In this document: positions 42,575 through 60,858 of the stretch, piece after piece | How the letters are laid out: every line of letters begins with the position of its first letter | How positions within the stretch are numbered: position 1 is the stretch's first letter | Source: Halohasta litchfieldiae | Lineage (GTDB): Archaea; Halobacteriota; Halobacteria; Halobacteriales; Haloferacaceae | Direction: 5' to 3' | DNA: 64,000 nucleotides | Assembly: GCF_002788215.1 (NCBI RefSeq) | Contig: NZ_CP024845.1 | Location: 2,976,001 to 3,040,000, forward strand | Made by a program: the position numbers and the translations under genes | The notes under the pieces: model-generated | What the model was told of the DNA's origin: nothing | Database searches by the model: none | Seen by the model: only the letters and a program-made list of their open reading frames with translations

Positions 42575-42651
42575 ACACACCGTTCGGCTGGGGTGCCGAA
42601 AAACCGTTCGTGGTCAGTCGGTCGACCACTCGAAATTCGTGACAACTCGTA

Positions 42652-42684
42652 ATCAAATTTGATAGCTACAAAGATATATTTATA
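42652..42684 (+). promoter_or_regulatory. Palindrome plus TATA box of candidate small RNA
   Basis: ATCAAATTTGAT (42652-42663) is a perfect 12-bp palindrome. It is followed by a purine-rich acaaaga (BRE-like) and TATATTTATA (42675-42684), one of the strongest TATA elements in the window. The BRE is on the left, which favours rightward transcription starting near 42705-42708. Confidence 0.6.
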
Positions 42685-42704
42685 CCTATGCGGTTCTCAA
42701 TCGG

Positions 42705-42796
42705 TAATGACGCTTCGCTTTGGAGGGCCGAAGCGTCAGCGGGGACCACAACGGAACGGACGGCACGTTTTCTGTGCCGCTTACGTTCCCCTTTTC
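42705..42796 (+). ncRNA. Candidate small structured RNA
   Basis: About 26 nt after the TATA box the sequence forms two strong hairpins. Hairpin 1: 42709-42717 with 42729-42737, 9 bp perfect, 11-nt loop. Hairpin 2: 42761-42766 with 42774-42779 (6 bp, 7-nt loop), extended by 42753-42758 with 42784-42789 (6 bp). It ends in CCCCTTTTC, a U run suited to archaeal termination. An overlapping ORF from the ATG at 42707 is highly basic with almost no acidic residues and runs antisense through the amphi-Trp gene, so coding is unlikely. The 3' end faces the amphi-Trp gene 37 bp away. Confidence 0.5.
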
Positions 42797-42832
42797 AAAA
42801 CACTACGAGCAAACAGCGGCAGTTCGGTATCG

Positions 42833-43120
42833 CTACTCGATGCTCAAAGAGCCACCGCTGCTGCCGCTCGATCCGTTTTCATCCCACTCGATTTCGAGTT
42901 CGAGAGACTTCTCTGGGTTCCCACCACTGCTGTCGGTTTCGCGTTCGGCTTTGACCTCGAAGGTCGGTCGGTCGGGGATCTCCATGGTCACGCTGTCGTC
43001 ACCGGCCGACAGCGACACTGCCTCACCAGCGGACAACCGATCAGCGACTGCTCGCAGATAGTCGGCGATCTCTTGGCGGGACTGTGTCGACTCCGATTTA
43101 AACAGTACCTCTTCTGGCAT
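42833..43120 (-). CDS. Amphi-Trp domain protein
   Basis: A 95-aa acidic protein matching the short amphi-Trp domain family: EEVLFKSESTQSRQEIADYLRAVADRLSAG (quoted in part) and a C-terminal LELEIEWDE strand. The function of the family is unknown. Start ATG 43120; a TATA-like tttattag at about 43144-43151 (minus strand) suits a leaderless mRNA. Two dyads upstream may regulate it. Confidence 0.8.
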   Translation of the reverse strand: MPEEVLFKSESTQSRQEIADYLRAVADRLSAGEAVSLSAGDDSVTMEIPDRPTFEVKAERETDSSGGNPEKSLELEIEWDENGSSGSSGGSLSIE

Positions 43121-43324: not shown

Positions 43325-43600
43325 ATGTACGACCTAACGGGATTCCAACGTGATCTGCTCTACGTTATCGCCGGGCTTGACGAACCACACGGGCTGGCGA
43401 TCAAAGATGAACTCGAAGAGTACTACGAAAAAGAGATTCATCACGGTCGACTGTATCCGAATCTCGACACGCTGGTCGACAAGGGACTCGTCGAGAAGGG
43501 CCAGCGGGACCGCCGTACCAACTTCTACACGATGACGCGTCGCGGTCGTCGTGAGATCGACGCTCGCTCGGACTGGGAAGAGCAGTACCTTCCGGCCTGA
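43325..43600 (+). CDS. PadR-type winged-helix regulator
   Basis: A 91-aa protein consisting of the PadR winged helix only: LTGFQRDLLYVIAGLDEPHG, IKDELEEYYEKEIHHGRLYPNLDTLVDKGLVEKG (quoted in part) and RRTNFYTMTRRGRREI are diagnostic. This short form is common in haloarchaea. A TATA-like aaatttatttg lies at 43289-43299, about 30 bp before the ATG. It may control the divergent amphi-Trp gene or itself. It converges with the AI-2E-type permease gene. Confidence 0.88.
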   Translation: MYDLTGFQRDLLYVIAGLDEPHGLAIKDELEEYYEKEIHHGRLYPNLDTLVDKGLVEKGQRDRRTNFYTMTRRGRREIDARSDWEEQYLPA

Positions 43601-60540: not shown

Positions 60541-60822
60541 GGATGGACTAGGTCGGGCAGTTAGGCCCTGCTCTGCACCCGTGAGACAGTCTTTAGCGGG
60601 GACCGAATGCCGGGGACGTCGGGTCGAACCGACACAGGCCTCGGAAGCCAACGTCGAAACCTCGTCCACCGGGGACAGTGGACCGGTGTGCTCACCCGCA
60701 GGGGTGTCACACACTGGTTTGCCGGCGGTAGTGGGTCAGGCGCGGAAGCGAGCAGCCCACCGCTGGACACCCGTCGCTCGTTGGATCGCGGGGTGGAGGA
60801 GGCGACCGAGATTCCCTGTGTT
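60541..60822 (+). ncRNA. ffs: Signal recognition particle RNA (7S)
   Basis: The SRP54-binding helix 8 is clear at 60731-60760: GTGGG pairs with CCCAC around the symmetric loop AGGC..GAGCAG with a GGAA tetraloop at 60744-60747. The 5' part (ggtcgggcagttaggccctg) matches the archaeal Alu-like region, and ggtcg (60551-60555) can pair with cgacc (60813-60817) to close helix 1. A TATA-like cttaagg lies at 60517-60523. Ends are estimated to within about 15 nt. Short ORFs here are shadows. Confidence 0.85.
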
Positions 60823-60858
60823 TGGAACACCCGGCAATCCCGGTGTGTCCGTCATTCA
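60823..60858 (+). terminator. Hairpin after SRP RNA
   Basis: GGAACACCCGG (60824-60834) pairs imperfectly with CCGGTGTGTCC (60840-60850) around cAATC, just past the SRP RNA. It could be a terminator or processing hairpin; the T content after it is low. Confidence 0.35.

Follow-up and report, generated by a model that had tools for sequence, protein, structure and literature searches.

A probable hyperconserved small non-coding RNA family of Halobacteria, viewed from a Halohasta litchfieldiae locus

Published work concluded that the small RNAs of haloarchaea mostly evolve fast, with 22 of 27 confined to Haloferax volcanii (PMC3956466). One described member of this repertoire, hts10 (HVO_2213s), lies on the forward strand (CHR 2078656-2078816), is listed after HVO_2213 at 161 nt with a reported transcript, occurs in 18 other haloarchaeal genomes and gave only a mild change in lag phase and yield when deleted (PMC3956466). 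Another, rancRNA_s194 of H. volcanii, demonstrates that the ribosome can be a target of RNAs of this kind (PMC6104027). Like the family described here, it is an intergenic haloarchaeal RNA of ~97 nt with its own promoter; it is, however, a different gene, conserved in Haloferax species only. Methanosarcina sRNA154 offers a further likeness, being a conserved sRNA of archaea that acts in trans and has functional loops (PMC5867862), but it belongs to another lineage and regulon, and the genomes sampled outside Halobacteria gave no match to the present family.

We analysed a window of 64,000 nucleotides from Halohasta litchfieldiae (NZ_CP024845.1, 2,976,001 to 3,040,000, forward strand), to which all positions below refer unless stated. 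Positions 42707-42795 are almost certainly the locus-A copy of a hyperconserved, independently transcribed non-coding RNA family of ~90–105 nt that is typical of Halobacteria. The element is thus larger in scope than the first-pass annotation of this window had seen, which described a single candidate small RNA, and belongs to a class-wide, multi-locus family.

The predicted RNA and its promoter

The element and its surroundings comprise the following features.

42652..42663, no strand: 12-bp palindrome ATCAAATTTGAT, at -56 to -45 from the first stem base
42672..42684, + strand: core promoter, with BRE-like positions and the TATA box TTTATA at 42679-42684 (sequence; 175-copy consensus)
42707..42795, + strand: predicted small RNA of ~90 nt (same-genus conserved block shares its ends; fold z -2.9)
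42708..42738, + strand: head hairpin of 10 bp with loop CTTTGGAGGGC, arms 42708-42717 and 42729-42738 (model R1, E=1e-16)
42739..42747, + strand: linker GCGGGGACC, invariant in 39 of 39 rows of alignment A2
42753..42789, + strand: compound 3' hairpin, outer stem GGAACG/CGTTCC, inner stem CGGCACG/TGTGCCG
42790..42796, + strand: CCTTTTC tail, a probable termination tract (sequence; same-genus comparison)
43325..43600, + strand: PadR-family winged-helix gene, RosR-like, a locus-A hallmark lying outside the RNA (Pfam PF03551, E=6e-17)

The first-pass annotation had described a palindrome, a BRE-like and a TATA element, a 9-bp hairpin and a second compound hairpin with a T-rich end. The palindrome is present, as is the compound hairpin with CCCCTTTTC directly 3' of it; the first hairpin is also there, one base pair longer than given. 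The TATA box stands, while the BRE-like part fits the family consensus only partly: across 175 copies, C/G occupies -36/-35 in 86–89%, and the window copy has A, not C, at -36. The same 175 copies carry T/T/A at -28/-27/-26 in 95–98% of cases, within a family upstream pattern of CG at -36/-35, TTTAAGT from -29 to -23 and TT near -10. TCAGG immediately precedes the stem, and the distance from promoter to hairpin is fixed, so transcription probably starts 1–3 nt 5' of the hairpin.

The ends of the RNA are predictions, the 5' end to within ±2 nt and the 3' end within the T run. In three same-genus copies the conserved block opens at the predicted transcript start and closes at CCCCTTTT, with diverged flanks on both sides. 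The region 42705-42800 folds at -38.9 kcal/mol against a mean of -28.3 for dinucleotide shuffles (z -2.9), and 2 of 200 shuffles fold as well. By its sequence, the window RNA is intergenic, short and non-coding and has its own archaeal promoter, as do haloarchaeal intergenic sRNAs. A scan of the window for tRNAs found none; sigma-70 promoter and terminator predictions carry no information where the DNA is archaeal.

ATCAAATTTGAT is expected by chance 0.03 times per window with at most one mismatch allowed, and its ATCA-N4-TGAT inverted repeat, near position -50 relative to the RNA, is kept in the two other same-genus copies. Palindromes upstream of the 175 copies were no commoner than in shuffles, and ATCAAATTTGAT is kept in the genus only; it is a possible lineage-specific operator or regulator binding site. 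A ACATGTGA-like element recurs upstream of the TATA box in copies L035, L118, L122, L124, L133 and L145. Seen at several locus-A copies, it too is possibly a regulator site.

Distribution and conserved architecture

The 41-nt core TGACGCTTCGCTTTGGAGGGCCGAAGCGTCAGCGGGGACCA was found by BLAST in 55 of 60 related genomes, usually one to three times per genome; in the window's own genome it matched four times, two of them partial. Scanning named genomes for an exact pattern gave at least 119 stretches. Among the matches listed, the titles were haloarchaeal or those of metagenome-assembled genomes named as haloarchaeal or uncultured archaea, and the genera included Haloferax, Halorubrum, Haloarcula, Natrialba, Natrinema, Halococcus and Haloquadratum. 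A covariance model, R1, built from 39 distinct copies, scored the window element at E=1e-16. This score and the presence of the core in 55 of 60 relatives place the element beyond chance.

In a genome sampling that was even across the class rather than exhaustive, R1 matched 289 of 292 Halobacteria genomes, representing 74 of 77 genera. Beyond the class, ~242 genomes of its phylum were sampled, and R1 matched none of them. A laxer model search of five earlier-negative genomes (G036, G043, G045, G052 and G058) gave chance-level hits only (best E 0.3), searches of phages and viral contigs for the family gave no match, and Rfam 15 had no match to 42600-42900 at the gathering threshold or at E≤10. 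In contrast to the published picture of fast-evolving sRNAs, this RNA has a head that is essentially identical in those 74 of 77 sampled genera, and it is absent from Rfam; these properties mark it as a strong candidate for an RNA with a core function in haloarchaea.

The near-invariant head makes up ~40 nt at the front of the RNA and consists of the 10-bp hairpin with a GGAGGG loop followed by GCGGGGACC. Its stem is nearly invariant in the 39 distinct copies of A2, with 97.4% of cells paired. Because it hardly varies, covariation support for it is thin: one A2 copy has double compensatory changes at two pairs, and copy L198 has a further double change (UA to CG). In mobile divergent copies, stem bases are changed and partly compensated while loop and linker are kept, and some of these copies are mismatched at the base of the stem. 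The loop itself differs in length by one base, with 2 or 3 pyrimidines before TGG. Its UGGA apex is the most exposed conserved part (predicted probability unpaired 0.93–0.99); the linker is predicted to be only about half unpaired and, in the window copy, is mostly paired. We considered a loop-linker pseudoknot (UUGG with CCAA) and dropped it, since linker letters after ACC vary and loop changes do not match them.

The 3' hairpin varies in sequence across the family and is followed by a short U tract. A strong equivalent was present in 171 of 171 copies tested (mean -31 kcal/mol), and in a 60-copy subset it folded at -30 kcal/mol versus -17 for shuffled sequences. Among 24 orthologs it showed 10 covarying pairs, and double-change cells numbered 48 where shuffles gave 17. 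The stems, whose conservation in relatives the first-pass annotation had proposed as the check on its reading, are therefore kept.

Two loci, mobile copies and neighbouring genes

Copies of the RNA occupy two main chromosomal loci, A (that of the window) and B. At 113 of 172 copies the neighbours are those of locus A: DUF7117 flanks the RNA on one side, while amphi-Trp, PadR and an AI-2E transporter are the genes of the opposite side. Locus-B neighbours, DUF5813 together with an AsnC-ligand-domain gene, were found at 22. Five of the 172, of which one also counts as locus A, sit ~0.13 kb from a divergent 325-aa gene that has no Pfam match. Neither locus type was recognised for 33; in many of these cases the available contig or stretch stops close by.

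Divergent copies ~0.13 kb from a divergently oriented ~325-aa haloarchaeal protein (HLAC_RS16120) are L032, L033, L111, L195, L197 and L198. L032 and L033 belong to the window's own genome (C1, ~1497262 and ~1522724, minus strand), and L195 lies on plasmid pHLAC01 (5996-6056). The ~325-aa gene has a patchy distribution, with 25 of 60 relatives carrying it, and seems to be mobile; archaellin- or pilin-like genes lie downstream of L032 and L195.

In Haloferax, the locus-B order is a TrkA-type gene, a 78-aa AsnC-domain gene, DUF5813, the RNA and a large membrane protein, the last read by eye as a chemotaxis transducer. HVO_2212 of H. volcanii is likewise 78 aa long (PMC12850539). The neighbours agree in length, order and strand, and hts10 is thus very probably the locus-B member in H. 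volcanii, an assignment made by gene order and not by sequence; the two differ in length, hts10 being listed at 161 nt and the family member predicted at ~97 nt. A second copy of the RNA is present in those Haloferax genomes that were searched, which suggests a reason for the mild effect of deleting only the probable H. volcanii copy. Neither PMC3956466 nor the other open-licence papers covered mention a family spanning the class, a second locus, the invariant head or covariation, and a search of such papers for the core sequence itself found none. H225.2R was considered as the H. volcanii name of the family and rejected, as it adjoins the 16S gene HVO_1728 (PMC3956466, PMC4983044).

Three readings would tie the conserved block to a gene at or near the locus. 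Reading frames are open over the RNA, among them an 88-aa ORF from ATG 42688, and a small basic protein might start there or at ATG 42707. One-base loop indels break the frame across the family, which rules out the overlapping ORF as a gene, and within the genus the frames diverge instead of being conserved; the ORF is also basic in an organism with an acidic proteome and has no Pfam match. We give the protein next to no credence. The preference for RNA over protein in the first-pass annotation is upheld by these indels together with the fixed promoter spacing, the two conserved hairpins and the covariation. The PadR gene makes a better case for a cis-acting 5' leader (attenuator or riboswitch): its synteny with the RNA is strong throughout Halobacteria, it lies near 99 of 172 copies, downstream and on the RNA's strand in 97 of these, and the RNA closes with a hairpin and a T run. 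In the window, the protein matches hsRosR structures at E=1e-23 and is for that reason called RosR-like, a likeness in sequence and not a statement of orthology. Yet PadR starts at least 246 nt (median ~416 nt) past the RNA loop, and in 58 of 95 cases a simple TATA-like match closely precedes it, which makes a leader very unlikely; moreover, an opposite-strand amphi-Trp gene often lies between the two, and locus B and the mobile copies have no PadR gene downstream, so that continuity of RNA and gene does not extend to all copies. That amphi-Trp gene, convergent with the RNA and 37 nt from it tail to tail in the window, was a regulatory target suggested by the first-pass annotation, and the RNA might act on it as an antisense or 3'-UTR regulator. 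As a conserved role this is not supported, because amphi-Trp was found near a minority of copies only (35 of 172); the RNA also sits at unrelated loci, and the conserved block closes before the amphi-Trp gene. We consider this reading highly improbable.

What the conserved head may do

The copies lie amid unrelated neighbours at locus A, at locus B and in mobile settings, which implies a free-standing, trans-acting product; action in trans, the other option raised by the first-pass annotation, is plausible. We tentatively favour an RNA whose loop and linker are offered to a partner, either another RNA or a protein. In this view the 3' hairpin, with its U tract, would terminate and shield the transcript, and the active part would be the head. 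Most likely acting in trans, the RNA would present its G-rich linker and its UGGA loop apex, the latter predicted to be unpaired, to a partner that all haloarchaea share. This partner could be C-rich RNA sites, met by base pairing, or an RNA-binding protein, and the outcome would be an adjustment of the translation or stability of several mRNAs. Exposed GGA in a hairpin loop is a feature of the CsrB/RsmY-type sponge RNAs, which carry many such hairpins. The present RNA has a single one, so the likeness is an analogy only; CsrA is reported absent from H. volcanii (PMC6104027). Several points count against this mechanism: the rRNA operon and SRP RNA yielded no target, the linker is mostly paired in the window copy, covariation of the head stem is thin, some mobile copies are mismatched at the stem base and, if locus B is hts10, deletion of a member has only mild growth effects.

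The head could instead belong to a housekeeping ribonucleoprotein RNA, in which the ribosome or a conserved protein of haloarchaea would bind it and it would have no seed role towards multiple mRNAs; its GGAGG loop might, for example, touch the anti-Shine-Dalgarno end of 16S rRNA. We regard this as possible but doubtful. It would suit an RNA that is near-universal, mostly in one or two copies, and whose paired and unpaired bases are alike invariant, and GGAGG has its complement in the CACCUCC with which 16S ends. H. volcanii also has abundant sRNAs with ribosome occupancy and no protein product, none of them shown to be the present RNA (PMC12482152). Five-base matches to the anti-Shine-Dalgarno sequence are common, however, and complementarity to the rRNA operon was not in excess, the core binding it no better than shuffled queries did. 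If hts10 is a family member, its deletion is viable, though a second copy remains. Rather unlikely, by our estimate, is the broader proposal of a near-universal housekeeping RNA that defines the haloarchaea, with the head as an undescribed ribonucleoprotein or ribosome-directed regulator, and with redundant encoding at two loci in one family and capture by mobile elements. If true, it would be a housekeeping RNA comparable to 7S RNA in its distribution within the class.

Against SRP RNA, too, the core showed no pairing of note and no excess over shuffled queries. The window also contains an archaeal SRP (7S) RNA gene, at 60541-60854 (Rfam RF01857, E=8e-47).
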